Of a DNA stretch of 64,000 nt, positions 57,728 through 64,000 are shown one piece after another (position 1 is the first letter of the stretch; every line of letters starts with the position of its first letter). Source of the DNA: Acidilobus saccharovorans 345-15. GTDB lineage: Archaea > Thermoproteota > Thermoprotei_A > Sulfolobales > Acidilobaceae. Below the pieces are notes generated by a model. The model had not been told where the DNA came from. It worked only from the letters and a program-made list of their open reading frames with translations, and made no database searches. Location of the stretch: contig NC_014374.1 in NCBI RefSeq assembly GCF_000144915.1, positions 1,426,001 to 1,490,000 on the forward strand. Reading direction: 5' to 3'. A program made the position numbers and the translations under genes.

Positions 57728-60304
57728 CTAGGCGCGGCCGCGCCTCAGCCTATAGAGAATTGCAACGGCCGCGCCCGCCACTATTATGGCTATTGCCGCC
57801 GCTATCGGGGCCGTGCTGATCCTGACCCGTGAGTACGTAGCAGTTGTCGGCGTTGTGGTGTGGGTCGCGGTCGGCGTCCTGTAGGCGGTGCTGGTGATGG
57901 TGTAGGTCGTCGGGCTTGTCACGCGCACCGTTGTCGTGGTGGTGTAAGTTACGGTAGAGGGCGGAGGAGTAACAGTTGTCGTTGTGGTGGTCGTGGTCGT
58001 CTCGGTGGCAGTCGTAGTATAGTTGCTCGTGGTAGTGATAGTGCTTGTGACTGTAGTAGTTGAAGTCGCAGTAACGGTAGTCACAGTCGTAGAGGTGGAG
58101 GAAGACGACGGTGAGAAGCTCACGTAGACCGTCTGCCCGGTCTGGACCACCCCGCTCAAGGGGGAGGCGGTGAAGCTGGGCGGCGGCAGGACGCGGAACT
58201 CGTAGCTGCCGGGCGCCTCGGTGAAGGTTATGACGCCTGAGGTGGTGTTGCTAGTGAGGCCTGCGAGCTCAACGCCCCACAGGCTCCCGCCTGGGAGGCC
58301 CGCCTCGACAAAGGAAATAGTGCCCAGGGACGCCGACGCTGAGCCGCTCGGCTCCTCAACAGCGCCGAACTCTGAGGAGTTGGCGTAAAACGACTCCGCG
58401 CCTGAGCCGAAGCCCATGGCCGCCACGTAGACCGCTCCCCCCTCAGGCGTGAGGGCCGACATGACTGCCGTGGAGCCAGCTACCAGGGTAGGCATGGGCT
58501 CATACAGCGGGGGCCGCCCTCTGAAGATGATCACCACGCCCCCCATGTCAGTGGTGCCCGTGTCGCAGCTGGCGGAGAGCGCCAGCTGCCCGCTGACGTT
58601 GGGGTAGTACTCGAGTCCGGGGCCCTCCTCGCCGCCCGAGCCGAAGCGGTAGAGGCCGTTTACCTGCCGCCCCTGCTCGTAGAGCGTCACCCCTCCCCAG
58701 CCGTCGGACGTGAAGTAAAGCACCAGGGCCGAGGAGTTAGGCGGGGCGTAGCCTATGTCCTGCACCTGCGGGGAGCTGCCCACCCCAAGGAAGGAGAAGT
58801 TGTAGGACGCCAGCACCGTGTTGCCCTGAGGGAACACAAGCAGCATGGGGGCTGAGTACATGGCCGAGCCCTGGGGGGCCGAGGCCTCGACCGTCACGTT
58901 AAGGCCGGGCCCGCTGTCGACGGGCCCAAGGAGGCCCGCGGCGCCCTGGTGCGTCCCATCGGCCGGAAAGCTCCCGTAGGGGGCCAGCACGTTGAACGCT
59001 ATGTCAGCCACCAGGCTTGAGTTAATGAAGACCGAGGCGTGGCCGTCACCGTAGGCCGTGAGGAACAAGTAGTAGGGCCCTCCGGCCGGGAGGGTCTCAA
59101 GGCCCTCGTTTGACGGGATGTCGGTGAAGAAGTACAGGGGCATGACAGTTGGGGGCCCGCCCAGGTACTCTACCAGCCCCCCGCTGACGTTCGTGGCCCC
59201 CGAGGGGGACTCCACGTACACGGCCACGCTGCCCCTCAGGCCCGGTATGTAGACGTAGAATGGCACTATGTAGTTATAGTAGGTCCCCGACCAGACAAGG
59301 GCCCCGTTGTCATATACGTACGCGGTCAGGTTCCCCGTTGTGCTCACCAGGAACAGCACCGCGCCGCTTCCGGCCACGTCGGCCTCCATGACCTCGACGG
59401 GCGAGCTGCCCACGTCCTCATACGAGAAGGCGTATGAGCCCGCGTACGCGCTCCCCGAGGGGAACTCTGAGACCCCAGCGATGACGTACTCGTACCCGCC
59501 TCCGGTCAGCGCATAGGAGACGTTGAGCAGCAGGGGCGACGAGGACGGGGGCACGCCCACGAACTCGGCTGGCATGTTGGCCCAGCTCGTCCCCGAGCCC
59601 ACATACGCAACGAAGGCCTGCCTCCAGTAGTCCTGGTCCGTGGCCACCGGGGTGCCGCGGGGGTTTCCTATGTATGAGTAGGCCACTGGATACACGAAGT
59701 AGGCGCCGCCCGCCGACGGGGTGAAGGTGAAGTTGTATGCGTTGACGCCAGGCTCATAGGTGGCCTGCACGCTCAGGTTCGTCGCCCCCGCGAACTGCAT
59801 GTAGGGTGAGACCACGAGGAAAATCAGGCCCTGCACGGGCGAGCCCAGCGAGTTGTTAACATCAACTGTTATGGAGTAGCTGCCGTTGCCGAGGTATGAA
59901 GCCCGCCAGGAGGATATCCAAGGCGTGTCCCTGCGGAAGGCGTAGGCCGAGGTGACGCCTGAGGAGGCCGTCACCTGCATGGAGCCCCAGTACTCCGTCG
60001 CGTTCAGCCCGCTGTTGGGGTAGTGGTACACGTAGAGCTGGTAGGTCCCCGGGGGCACCCCGAGGAACGCCACCTGCGAGCTGGCGTTCATGTAGGCCGT
60101 GGCAACGACGTTGCCGTTTGACGGGCTCACCAGGACGCCGTAGGCCACCCCCGGAACTTCAGCTGCTGGCTCGCCGTTGACGTTATATATGGTCACCACA
60201 ATGTTGCCCTCCGCGGGCTCTGCGCCGCTGGCTCCCGGGTGAAGGGGGAGCAGGAGGACCGCTAGGACCGCCGCTAGGACGAACAGGACTAACCTGGACC
60301 TCAA
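57728..60304 (-). CDS. Large secreted, C-terminally anchored surface protein
   Basis: An 858-residue exported protein: Sec signal (about 1-27), beta-rich ectodomain with tens of sequons, a thermopsin-like repeat domain near residues 655-730 (SFVEAGLPGGSLWGVELAG ... SPLSGVVQTGQ), a Thr/Ser-rich stalk (about 735-815, TTTTTT runs), then a C-terminal TM helix (AAIAIIVAGAAVAILY) and basic tail. No protease motif is visible, so it is probably a surface adhesin or S-layer-associated protein. TTG start (TTGAGGTCC) with TATA-like TTATATTTC about 55 bp upstream. Divergent from the tubulin-like gene. Confidence 0.85.
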   Translation of the reverse strand: MRSRLVLFVLAAVLAVLLLPLHPGASGAEPAEGNIVVTIYNVNGEPAAEVPGVAYGVLVSPSNGNVVATAYMNASSQVAFLGVPPGTYQLYVYHYPNSGLNATEYWGSMQVTASSGVTSAYAFRRDTPWISSWRASYLGNGSYSITVDVNNSLGSPVQGLIFLVVSPYMQFAGATNLSVQATYEPGVNAYNFTFTPSAGGAYFVYPVAYSYIGNPRGTPVATDQDYWRQAFVAYVGSGTSWANMPAEFVGVPPSSSPLLLNVSYALTGGGYEYVIAGVSEFPSGSAYAGSYAFSYEDVGSSPVEVMEADVAGSGAVLFLVSTTGNLTAYVYDNGALVWSGTYYNYIVPFYVYIPGLRGSVAVYVESPSGATNVSGGLVEYLGGPPTVMPLYFFTDIPSNEGLETLPAGGPYYLFLTAYGDGHASVFINSSLVADIAFNVLAPYGSFPADGTHQGAAGLLGPVDSGPGLNVTVEASAPQGSAMYSAPMLLVFPQGNTVLASYNFSFLGVGSSPQVQDIGYAPPNSSALVLYFTSDGWGGVTLYEQGRQVNGLYRFGSGGEEGPGLEYYPNVSGQLALSASCDTGTTDMGGVVIIFRGRPPLYEPMPTLVAGSTAVMSALTPEGGAVYVAAMGFGSGAESFYANSSEFGAVEEPSGSASASLGTISFVEAGLPGGSLWGVELAGLTSNTTSGVITFTEAPGSYEFRVLPPPSFTASPLSGVVQTGQTVYVSFSPSSSSTSTTVTTVTATSTTTVTSTITTTSNYTTTATETTTTTTTTTVTPPPSTVTYTTTTTVRVTSPTTYTITSTAYRTPTATHTTTPTTATYSRVRISTAPIAAAIAIIVAGAAVAILYRLRRGRA

Positions 60305-60805
60305 CAGGCTAGCTCCGAAGCCAGCTGGCCTCGATTTCCTCTGTTAGCCCACTGAAATATAAGTATTGCCACAGGCCGCCTTTCCCAGGGGCCCACGGTA
60401 GGCGCTGAAAAGCGCGGGCTGCCGCTGCGGCATCGCACGCCCCGCGGCTCGCGGCTCCACCGCCATTAGTGGCGGCTGGCCCGTTGCAGCTTACTGGGCA
60501 AGGGACATGTAGTCATCGACAGCTCAGGGCAACCTCATCCTGGAGCCGCTCGGCTGCCTTTGTCGCGGTTGGCGGCCGCTCGGGCTATCTCACTTCCTTT
60601 TATAATATATAACAGCGGGCGGGGCCCGACGGCGCTGATCCCATGTTGTGAACTGATGAGCTGACCGCCGCTCAACCCTAAGCCCCTTTTGTAGTTTTAC
60701 GTTAACGCCTAATTCGGCAAGGCCCTGCCCTCGGGCACAAATATATAACATAAATTTATAGAAAATATCAAAAGTTTTTTATGCTAACATAAGCACACAA
60801 CTTAC
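60305..60805. other. 500-bp divergent region with strong TATA elements
   Basis: It separates the surface protein (leftward) from the tubulin-like gene (rightward). Its GC-rich left part carries a hairpin, CCGCCA-TTAG-TGGCGG (60459-60474). The middle has TTTTATAATATATAA (60598-60612) with sequence 26-90 bp downstream that could form a short RNA and then CCCCTTTTG. The right part is AT-rich with several TATA-like elements (60739-60780) for the 60806 gene. No protein gene seen. Confidence 0.6.
60625..60692 (+). ncRNA. Possible short RNA
   Basis: A strong TATA (60598-60612) would start transcription near 60630. The following bases hold complementary ends (GGCG ... CGCC), a TGATGA box at 60654-60659 and CTGA at 60661-60664, and a T4 run at 60687-60690. 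The box spacing does not fit a standard C/D guide RNA, so the identity is open. Confidence 0.25.
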
Positions 60806-63800
60806 TTGACAGGAAGTGGAAAACAGATGGGAAGCCTTTTAGTGCCGGTCCTCTTCTCCTACGCTGGAATAATAAGTATAGGCCTCGCCGCGCTGGAGTT
60901 CGTAGCCCTGTGGATGCTGACGGGCAAGATAATAACCAAGGAGTCAGGGATCAGCGTCATTAACATTGCCTACACCGTGGCCTGGTCCGTGCTCACTCTG
61001 CTGGGGGTGGCCATATACTCGTTCATGTCGCCGGGGCTCGCCGCGCTGCCCACCGTGCTGCTCTACGCCATCTACTCCGTGCTGCTCGGCATAAGCGTGG
61101 TGCTCCTGATAGTGCCCCTCGCCATGTTCTACGGCAAGTACAGGCAGTACCAGTCGCTGGCCAACAGGTACAACAACATAAAGCTGAGGAGCGACAAGGC
61201 CCTCGCGGACGCCTCCTCGCTGTCTGGCAAGCTGAAGAGGATAAGGGATGACATATCAAGCACGGAGGCGCTCATAGCTAAGGCCAGGCAGCTGAAGGAC
61301 ATAGCTGACAGGAACCCGGACGTGATCATCAAGGGCGTGAACGAGCGCCCAACCATGCCGGAGTTCTCAATACCCAAGGTGAATTACGTGATCGTCGGCA
61401 TAGGGGGCGGGGGGTCGGCCCTCCTGGAGAGCTACATAGAGTACCTGCGCTCGCAGGGGGCGATAAAGGACGAGCCCACCAACCCCTTCCTCTTCGTCTT
61501 CTTCGACCTTAACTCCTCCAACGCGGAGAGGCTGAGGAAGCAGTACGAGGGCACGGAGGTCGCGCCGAAGCTTTACGTCTTCAACCACTACGAGGCCATG
61601 ACGCCGGACTCCATAAGGTTCACCAACCCCTGGATATCGGGCCTCTACCAGGAGTCCGAGATACCAGTCCAGGCCGCAGGGAACCTCAGGTTCGCGGGCC
61701 TCGCGGCCTACAGCGCTATCAGGAGCGCGTTCATAGACGAGGTCAAGCACAGGCTGGAGTCACTCAAGTCGGCAACGGGGTACTCAGGCACCATGATTGT
61801 GGTCCTGACCTCGCTCGGAGGGGGAACAGGCTCGGGGTCGTTCCTCAAGATAACCATGGACCTCAAGAAGGCCGTCAAGGACCTGACAGGCGTAGACCCA
61901 ATAGTGGCAGGCGTGGGCGTCGTACCTAAGGAGGACGAGTCCGCGGTTAACCACGCTAACGCCTACGCGGCCATCAAGGAGCTTGTCTACCTCCTGAAGC
62001 ACGGCTCCTCGCAGGGCATGAACTACCCGTTCGACTTCTTCTTCCTGGTGAGCAGGGAGAAGCCGGTCAGGAACGTGGACCTCATGATAGGCCTCGCCCT
62101 CTCAAGGTTCCTGTTCGACCTGGGCACCTCAGGGGCGCCTAGGAAGGGCGAGGGCAAGGGGGTCGAGCAGGGGACGGCCTTCGCCCACACCTTTGACCTG
62201 GAGGACCTGAGGACGTACCTGCAGCCCATAGACCTCCTGACCTTCAGCAGGTATGAGATCTACTTCCCGGCGTCGAAGCTCTCGTGGCTCAAGCTTGTTG
62301 GCGAGCCCGTGCTCGGCGAGGTTGAGTCGAGGGAGAAGGGCATCAGGGACTCCCTCAGCGAAGCTGAGGCCTCGCTCAACGCCCTCAAGTCGGACGTGTC
62401 CGGCATACTAAATGACATAGACGCCCTTTACAGGGACATGCAGTCAGCGCTCATGTACCCCAGCTTCGAGAGGAGGAAGCAGGACATGATGAAGGACATG
62501 CTCTCCATCAAGTCAAACCTCTCGACGGGCACGATAACCGTGACGTCGCTGGAGGGCGACTACAAGAGGCTCATGTCGCAGTCCGAGCCCCTGGGATACC
62601 CAGAGCTGAGCAGGCAGGTGTCGGAGTTCAGGGCGGCCGTCTCGGACACGATAAGCTTCCTCAGGTCGCCGCCCATATCGTCAATCGAGTACGTGTTCCC
62701 CGTGAAGTCACCTGATGACATAGACGTAGGCCAGCTGCAGACTGCCAACCTCTACGGCATGATAACCAGGCTGGGGCTGCAGGACGCCTTCAAGTCGGCG
62801 CTCACCAACCTCTCGGGCACCCTGGCCGGGGTCGGGCAGACCATGGCCAACCTCAACTATGACCTAATAAAGGCCCCCATAGGGAGCACAAGCCCCTTCA
62901 TGGAGTTCGTGAGGAAGTACAACCCCGACCTGGCGAGGGAGGGCGTGGTCTACACTCCCCCCATAAGGAACATACTGCAGCTCGTCACCACAGCGCCTGA
63001 GAACGTGTCAACGGCCGACTTCCCTACCGAGAAGACCATAACCCTCGCCCTGCAGAGCAAGGCCTCCAACCCCGCCTTCAGGCTGGGCTACGTCCCCGCC
63101 AAGAAGTTCTCGATATCGTCTTACAGGATAATCCACGGGATATACCTGTGGAGCATAGCTGGGAGTGGGGACTACGTCTTCACCGACATCAGCTACCTGA
63201 AGAGGAGCTACGAGCAGCTGAAGCTCCAGAAGAACATAGGCCTTCACCACGCGCTCTTCTACGGCGACTTTAAGGACTTCGAGGACCTGACGGGCGTCAG
63301 GGTGAGCGGCATGTCGCCGGCGGAGGGCGTGAAGAGGATAGTTGACTTCTGGTCAAGCTACGACCCAGAGCTTGACTACATAGACATGTGGGGGGTCCTG
63401 AGGCTGGCGTTCGTCTACGAGGGGCTCGCCAAGATAAGGAACGCCTTCGACAACTACATGAAGGAGGTCTCAGGCGCCATTGAAATGCTTTCAAAGGGCG
63501 GCACCGCGGTCCCCATAGAGAAGATAGGCAGGCTGGCCGAGGACATAGCGTCGCTGGAGGTGCCCAAGGTTAAGGCTGACATAGACAAAATAGCCGAGGC
63601 CAACAGGGTCGCCAGGAGCGAGGTCATAGACAGGGCGCTCATGGGCATAAAGGAGACCGTGTCGGACGTCTACAACGTGCTCTCGAGCGCGTCCAACAGC
63701 CTGGAGGCCACGCTGACGAAGCTTTCCGAGGTCGAGGCGTCGAAGAAGGGGGACTACTTCGCCCTGAGGGAGCTCCAGGAGCTCAGGAACTCCATTATAA

Positions 63801-63856
63801 CGGTCCAGCGCAAGGCCTCCGAGATGGCCGAGGAGTTCATCAGCGCCTACGGCTGA
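60806..63856 (+). CDS. Membrane-anchored tubulin/FtsZ-superfamily GTPase
   Basis: A 1016-residue protein. Three N-terminal TM helices (about 12-38, 52-73, 80-109) and a coiled coil (about 112-170) precede a GTPase core. There VNYVIVGIGGGGSALLES (192-209) corresponds to the T1 phosphate loop, FLFVFFDLNSSNA (228-240) to the T2-T3 region, SLGGGTGSGSF (336-346) is the tubulin/FtsZ T4 signature, and GVVPKEDESAVNHANAYAAIKELVYLLK (371-398) the T5-T6 Asn helix, as in tubulin VVP...NA. The C-terminal half is mostly helical, with coiled coils about 515-600 and 930-1010. It resembles the Tubulin_2 type of FtsZ-like protein, larger than FtsZ (about 380). TTG start (ATG 60827 is possible); the next gene starts 16 bp after its stop. 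Confidence 0.85.
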   Translation: MTGSGKQMGSLLVPVLFSYAGIISIGLAALEFVALWMLTGKIITKESGISVINIAYTVAWSVLTLLGVAIYSFMSPGLAALPTVLLYAIYSVLLGISVVLLIVPLAMFYGKYRQYQSLANRYNNIKLRSDKALADASSLSGKLKRIRDDISSTEALIAKARQLKDIADRNPDVIIKGVNERPTMPEFSIPKVNYVIVGIGGGGSALLESYIEYLRSQGAIKDEPTNPFLFVFFDLNSSNAERLRKQYEGTEVAPKLYVFNHYEAMTPDSIRFTNPWISGLYQESEIPVQAAGNLRFAGLAAYSAIRSAFIDEVKHRLESLKSATGYSGTMIVVLTSLGGGTGSGSFLKITMDLKKAVKDLTGVDPIVAGVGVVPKEDESAVNHANAYAAIKELVYLLKHGSSQGMNYPFDFFFLVSREKPVRNVDLMIGLALSRFLFDLGTSGAPRKGEGKGVEQGTAFAHTFDLEDLRTYLQPIDLLTFSRYEIYFPASKLSWLKLVGEPVLGEVESREKGIRDSLSEAEASLNALKSDVSGILNDIDALYRDMQSALMYPSFERRKQDMMKDMLSIKSNLSTGTITVTSLEGDYKRLMSQSEPLGYPELSRQVSEFRAAVSDTISFLRSPPISSIEYVFPVKSPDDIDVGQLQTANLYGMITRLGLQDAFKSALTNLSGTLAGVGQTMANLNYDLIKAPIGSTSPFMEFVRKYNPDLAREGVVYTPPIRNILQLVTTAPENVSTADFPTEKTITLALQSKASNPAFRLGYVPAKKFSISSYRIIHGIYLWSIAGSGDYVFTDISYLKRSYEQLKLQKNIGLHHALFYGDFKDFEDLTGVRVSGMSPAEGVKRIVDFWSSYDPELDYIDMWGVLRLAFVYEGLAKIRNAFDNYMKEVSGAIEMLSKGGTAVPIEKIGRLAEDIASLEVPKVKADIDKIAEANRVARSEVIDRALMGIKETVSDVYNVLSSASNSLEATLTKLSEVEASKKGDYFALRELQELRNSIITVQRKASEMAEEFISAYG

Positions 63857-63871
63857 CAGAAGTGACAAGGG

Positions 63872-64000
63872 TTGTCCGCGCCCCTCAGCCTGGGCGAGGA
63901 GGAGGCGTTCCTGGAGTACCTTGACGATGTCCTTCACAACCCCCCTCCCTCCCTCAGCGCCGTCTTTAAGGACCGCATGAATGAGATGAGGGACCTCGTG
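63872..64000 (+). CDS. Start of a gene downstream of the tubulin-like GTPase, cut by window
   Basis: TTG 63872 opens 43 codons to the window end: SAPLSLGEEEAFLEYLDDVL, then HNPPPSLSAVFKDRMNEMRDLV. Acidic, helical, no known domain. The 15-bp gap after the tubulin-like gene suggests an operon; the product could be a partner of it. Confidence 0.6.
   Translation, partial: MSAPLSLGEEEAFLEYLDDVLHNPPPSLSAVFKDRMNEMRDLV

Follow-up and report, generated by a model that had tools for sequence, protein, structure and literature searches.

An intact FtsZ-like family 1 GTPase with a predicted membrane anchor, encoded beside a surface protein gene in Acidilobus saccharovorans

RESULTS

Organization of the locus

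We analysed a stretch of 64,000 nt (the window) from the genome of Acidilobus saccharovorans 345-15. Towards its right end lie the gene Z, which encodes a tubulin-related GTPase, the divergently oriented surface protein gene S and the co-directional gene B. The features on which the analysis rests are as follows.

57728..60304, minus strand: S, divergent surface protein of 858 aa with a signal-like N-terminus, a Thr-rich stalk and a C-terminal TM segment
59600..60250, minus strand: N-terminal domain of S, also present in the surface proteins that adjoin Z in two genomes inferred to be Saccharolobus-like (38% identity, E about 1e-37; distribution)
60770..60784, plus strand: BRE/TATA-like element (AAAAGTTTTTTATG) of a putative promoter, about 26 nt upstream of the Z start codon, read from the sequence
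60806..63856, plus strand: Z, membrane-anchored FtsZ-like family 1 (Tubulin_2) GTPase, 1016 aa, TTG start (ORF list, Pfam, homology, AlphaFold2, structure search)
60845..61141, plus strand: N-terminal segment with three hydrophobic (TM) helices, residues about 14-112; the long helix after them extends to about residue 169 (hydropathy, AlphaFold2, charge pattern)
61394..61417, plus strand: T1 glycine loop VGIGGGGS, residues 197-204 (alignment, motif positions)
61817..61837, plus strand: T4 signature GGGTGSG, residues 338-344 (alignment, motif positions)
61919..61963, plus strand: S5/H5 element VVPKEDESAVNHANA, residues 372-386 (hhalign alignment to FtsZ)
62189..62206, plus strand: candidate catalytic T7 loop TFDLED, residues 462-467 (conservation, motif spacing)
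63872..64000, plus strand: start of B (TTG), 695 aa with C-terminal TMs, continuing past the window to L011:13959

The open reading frame of Z is as the first-pass annotation had read it from the letters, and the three motifs to which that annotation drew attention were correctly placed (VGIGGGGS at residue 197, GGGTGSG at residue 338 and GVVPKEDESAVNHANA at about residue 371). The position of the BRE/TATA-like element fits a leaderless transcript that would start at the TTG. Z is similar in base composition to the neighbouring genes and is the only tubulin-family match in the whole genome (1,496,453 bases, single contig).

Three N-terminal TM helices had also been proposed, and here hydropathy, the structural model and the charge distribution are concordant. 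Hydrophobic helices were found at about residues 14-40, 48-70 and 80-112 by hydropathy, in agreement with AlphaFold2, and positive charge lies in the loops that would be cytoplasmic, the outer loop carrying none. Of the long coiled coils claimed at the same time, the long helices stand in the full-length AlphaFold2 model (residues 83-169, 489-547 and 922-979), with which a coiled-coil arrangement would be consistent. That model, built with 15 relatives, is mediocre (mean pLDDT 62), and the C-terminal half of Z is left uninterpreted because the model is too poor; a reading by eye of a coiled coil inserted in an FtsZ-like C-terminal domain was dropped.

Family and fold of Z

Z matched Pfam Tubulin_2 with 61.3 bits (E = 1.3e-16; cut-off 27) and Pfam Tubulin with 34.1 bits (E = 4.4e-8), also above the cut-off. 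Profile comparison by hhalign further linked it to archaeal FtsZ of the same phylum, with E values of 8.9e-6 for a profile of its closest group (type A, below) and 4.5e-8 for that of the soluble group. For the GTPase domain, residues 186-522 were modelled by AlphaFold2 on 29 aligned domains. The pTM was 0.68, and block means were mostly 80-95 up to strand S6, with a weaker part at about 90-110, while the T6-H7-T7 region had low pLDDT. The best 50 PDB matches of this model were all FtsZ, CetZ, TubZ or tubulin (lowest E value 1.9e-7), and the 50 matches listed for the full-length model were all tubulin, FtsZ or TubZ. The tubulin-superfamily fold suspected from the motifs was thus borne out by both profiles and structure prediction. 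In the alignment, residues of the nucleotide loops are invariant. The overall layout, a GGGTG(S/T)G loop within an FtsZ-like domain followed by a long helical region in a protein of about 1000 aa, is that of FtsZ-like family 1, and on these sequence and model comparisons we assign Z to this family of tubulin-superfamily GTPases (Pfam Tubulin_2, PF13809). It is not a canonical FtsZ, as it falls outside the FtsZ clade in our tree and shows no match to the FtsZ C-terminal Pfam domain. The contrast that the first-pass annotation drew with Cdv-type division also holds, in that a CdvB (ESCRT-III)-type gene is present in the source genome and SepF was not found there.

A candidate T7 loop

The T6-H7 and downstream elements could not be identified in FtsZ-like family 1 in 2010 (PMC2875224), and our hhalign alignments of the Z group and of the soluble group to FtsZ likewise end ahead of T7. 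Past strand S6, the only invariant columns among the 29 aligned type A and B domains are D464, D467 and one proline, an invariance somewhat favoured by the sampling, because a pattern containing the T7 motif was among the criteria by which these sequences were picked. The two aspartates belong to a motif, [FI]D[LVIM]xD, that lies 127 residues past GGGTGSG in Z and about 117 in type B; the archaeal FtsZ counterpart, NIDFED, lies 104 residues after the glycine motif. The surrounding residues are INIDFEDFKTV in an archaeal FtsZ (L067) and HTFDLEDLRTY in Z. Judged by motif, order, spacing and conservation, D464 and D467 are candidate counterparts of the FtsZ NxDxxD aspartates, and FDxxD is a new candidate T7 loop for the region that the 2010 work failed to identify. 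Two divergent members (L035, L045) have D-x-A-N at what by eye seems the same place, and type C members are without the FDxxD motif. The L045 protein, a soluble FtsZ-like protein of G448, has an AGGGTGS loop and DLAN replacing DxxD, its C-terminal half appearing Z-like by eye.

Distribution of Z and its relatives

In the first search of the order, close matches to Z were confined to two genomes, G050, with a full-length homologue (36% identity, E = 5.6e-198), and G136, with a transposon-broken copy 36-37% identical across both halves. Searching 214 genomes of the order with Tubulin_2 yielded 15 carriers, which fall mainly into three groups by gene content and sequence. Type A, with the TM anchor, occurs in four genomes, namely the source genome and G050, G136 and G208, the last three of which we infer to be Saccharolobus-like. 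Type B is soluble and about 880 aa long. Type C is divergent, and one of its members has a DO-GTPase-like gene downstream. Type A forms a clade (support 1.0) separate from both FtsZ and the soluble FtsZ-like group. In the Tubulin_2 search Z was missing from three further genomes of the genus, and the genes flanking Z were not syntenic when compared with two congeneric genomes. No type A member was found outside the order with a type A profile in about 400 sampled genomes of the phylum, and a scan of genome contigs, viral contigs and plasmids found no relatives of the subfamily.

Type A Z is intact in the source genome and G050 and broken by insertion sequences (IS) in G136 and G208. In G136, IS copies lie inside both Z and the gene at the position of B; in G208 the insertion in Z is at a different site, with short flank overlaps resembling target-site duplications. 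Comparing G136 with G208, dN/dS was 0.12 for the C-terminal part of Z and 0.21 for its short N-terminal part, against 0.24-0.30 for other genes. Since Z was constrained and has been broken more than once, we consider it accessory rather than essential.

Several genomes of the order carry a second FtsZ-like family 1 locus of the soluble kind (L036:8706-16198, L038, L039, L041, L043, L014, L015), comprising a secreted/TM protein (about 315 aa), the soluble Z-type protein (about 880 aa), a coiled-coil protein with multiple TM segments (about 740-870 aa) and, in addition, small conserved genes. Another family of the phylum (f17) frequently has this locus too, and no description of its neighbourhood was found in the literature searched. 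In G125 its FtsZ-like gene is apparently split into ORFs of 417 and 454 aa (L039:9514-12170). Elsewhere, in a Sulfolobus-type family genome (L040:9515-15932), a type C protein (GGGFGSG) is followed by a DO-GTPase-like P-loop GTPase below the Pfam cut-off, a pair that represents the classic 2010 neighbourhood, and the FtsZ-like protein of G164 adjoins a 725-aa protein resembling an ion-channel regulatory protein by eye (L035:1109-5569).

Genes flanking Z

A large surface protein diverging upstream had been noted as a neighbour of Z; it is S, and its link to Z proved stronger than could be known from the window. The N-terminal domain of S is 38% identical (E about 1e-37) to that of the surface protein encoded upstream of Z in G136, and this arrangement recurs in G208. 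Of 211 genomes of the order searched with this domain, just four gave strong matches, and in three of them (the source genome, G136 and G208) it adjoins Z; the fourth, G090, has two copies in a 1736-aa surface protein (L100:8191-13401) with no Z nearby. The association of domain and Z has a hypergeometric probability of 1e-5, where two of the three co-carriers are close relatives and the lineages concerned number about two. These data suggest a new link of Z to a surface protein with an N-terminal domain that occurs almost exclusively in Z-carrying genomes.

On the other side, B starts directly after Z as proposed, the spacing being 15 bp after the stop codon and not 16. The full gene (L011:11872-13959) matches no Pfam family. 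As a partner gene it has the place and topology of the Saccharolobus gene after Z but no demonstrable homology to it: the idea that the two are homologous was dropped when reversed-sequence controls scored equally well in hhalign and shuffle tests, and a search of 98 genomes of the order gave no convincing homologue of B. The Saccharolobus-like loci have a third gene, D, after the gene at the B position, which was not seen at the source genome locus. Bacterial members of the family adjoin vWA, kinase and GTPase genes, an association that is frequent and not universal (PMC2875224); among the neighbours of Z tested, Pfam recognised no vWA, kinase or P-loop GTPase gene. Past B (L011:14085-17846) lie a CARF3-like protein with an HTH-type C-terminus and then a second HerA, a paralogue of the HerA at G000:C1:961038; they are accompanied by a gene of 360 aa in the opposite orientation.

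DISCUSSION

FtsZ-like family 1 (FtsZl1) was defined by Makarova and Koonin in 2010, who predicted a crenarchaea-specific subfamily and described SSO1376 of S. solfataricus as having N-terminal TM helices and being disrupted by a transposon (PMC2875224). Two Sulfolobales with FtsZL1 were mentioned again in 2022 (PMC9723716), and a 2023 study of FtsZ and tubulin equated the FtsZ-like sequences of this family with Tubulin_2 (PMC9871819). Z is thus not new as a kind. No functional study of the family was found in the literature searched. The 2010 authors left the filament question open because the catalytic region was unrecognisable and the crenarchaeal example was broken. With an intact Z and a candidate T7 loop, this question becomes directly testable through two aspartates.

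Taking the evidence together, we give about even chances to the proposal that Z forms a GTPase scaffold at the cell cortex that is connected across the membrane with a surface protein and has an accessory role, not that of a division FtsZ. In this proposal Z would be inserted in the membrane and its GTPase domain would face the cytoplasm, the GTP-bound form would assemble head to tail, and the next subunit would supply D464 and D467 for the hydrolysis of GTP. An array formed in this way at the cortex, with its coiled-coil arms, may cluster or position S, and possibly B too, in a patch of the envelope; alternatively, its output may be bending of the membrane at that patch. Membrane remodelling by the Z system is an idea we take over by inference from the 2010 hypothesis, which the paper's own reviewer disputed (PMC2875224). 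The accessory role is suggested because Z is missing from its three genus-mates and from nearly all of the order, is IS-broken in two of the three Saccharolobus-like carriers, and coexists with a CdvB-type gene. More tentatively, Z may form a tubulin-type filament in which every subunit is membrane-integral and which has a physical connection through the membrane to its own dedicated surface protein. If this is true, a transmembrane linkage from cytoskeleton to surface layer would exist in archaea carrying Cdv-type division genes.

Among the alternatives, the strongest, albeit somewhat improbable in our judgement, casts Z as a membrane-bound GTP switch that does not polymerise and serves transport or signalling across the envelope. 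The 2010 reviewer, who questioned whether filaments were possible, made this proposal for the family, in which none of the known C-terminal filament elements was found (PMC2875224). Protofilament packing could also be hindered by the long anchor at the N-terminus of Z and by its C-terminal half. However, the T7 aspartates, which in FtsZ act on the neighbouring subunit, appear conserved, and all characterised members of the superfamily form filaments according to the 2010 authors (PMC2875224). It is less likely that Z is a dispensable, horizontally moving gene under weak selection whose surface-protein neighbourhood is incidental. The very patchy occurrence (4 of 214 genomes), the IS-broken copies, the lack of synteny within the genus and the failure of homology tests to demonstrate conservation of B would fit such a gene, but a frame of 1016 codons is intact in the source genome and full length in G050, dN/dS is as low as 0.12, the S domain accompanies Z in both lineages and the base composition is like that of the neighbours.

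We regard two further readings as very unlikely. The tubulin-superfamily fold could suggest that Z acts in cell division, beside Cdv or in its place; the CdvB-type gene, the absence of SepF, the genus-mates without Z and the two broken copies argue against this. It is just as improbable that the locus belongs to a defence island, for which the CARF3-like and HerA matches in PADLOC just downstream (L011:14085-16762) might speak, given that no CARF or HerA was recognised next to Z at the Saccharolobus-like loci and that neither Z nor B matches any PADLOC family.

Through its link to Z, S becomes a first concrete candidate for the partner of a tubulin relative in an organism believed to manage without FtsZ. 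Z itself is a valuable intact example of a subfamily predicted in 2010 from a broken copy.

The closest known protein is SSO1376, which belongs to the same subfamily as Z and shares its N-terminal TM helices and tubulin GTPase domain; the G136 copy fits its description. SSO1376 is broken whereas Z is intact, and it is because Z is intact that alignment, modelling and motif analysis were possible. The soluble FtsZl1 (Tubulin_2) proteins resemble Z in the GTPase domain, the long helical or coiled-coil region, the size (about 880-1050 aa) and the FDxxD candidate T7, but lack the N-terminal TM segment and have other neighbours (cl15, cl17 etc.). CetZ of Haloferax (PDB 4b45), a soluble protein of under 400 aa with a non-division role in cell shape, is the best structural match of the Z domain model. 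Both are tubulin-superfamily GTPases; they are about 16% identical over the GTPase domain, and CetZ has neither TM helices nor the coiled-coil half. Archaeal FtsZ with SepF shares with Z the GTPase fold and the principle of membrane attachment; the anchor of FtsZ is the separate protein SepF, whereas that of Z lies within its own polypeptide.
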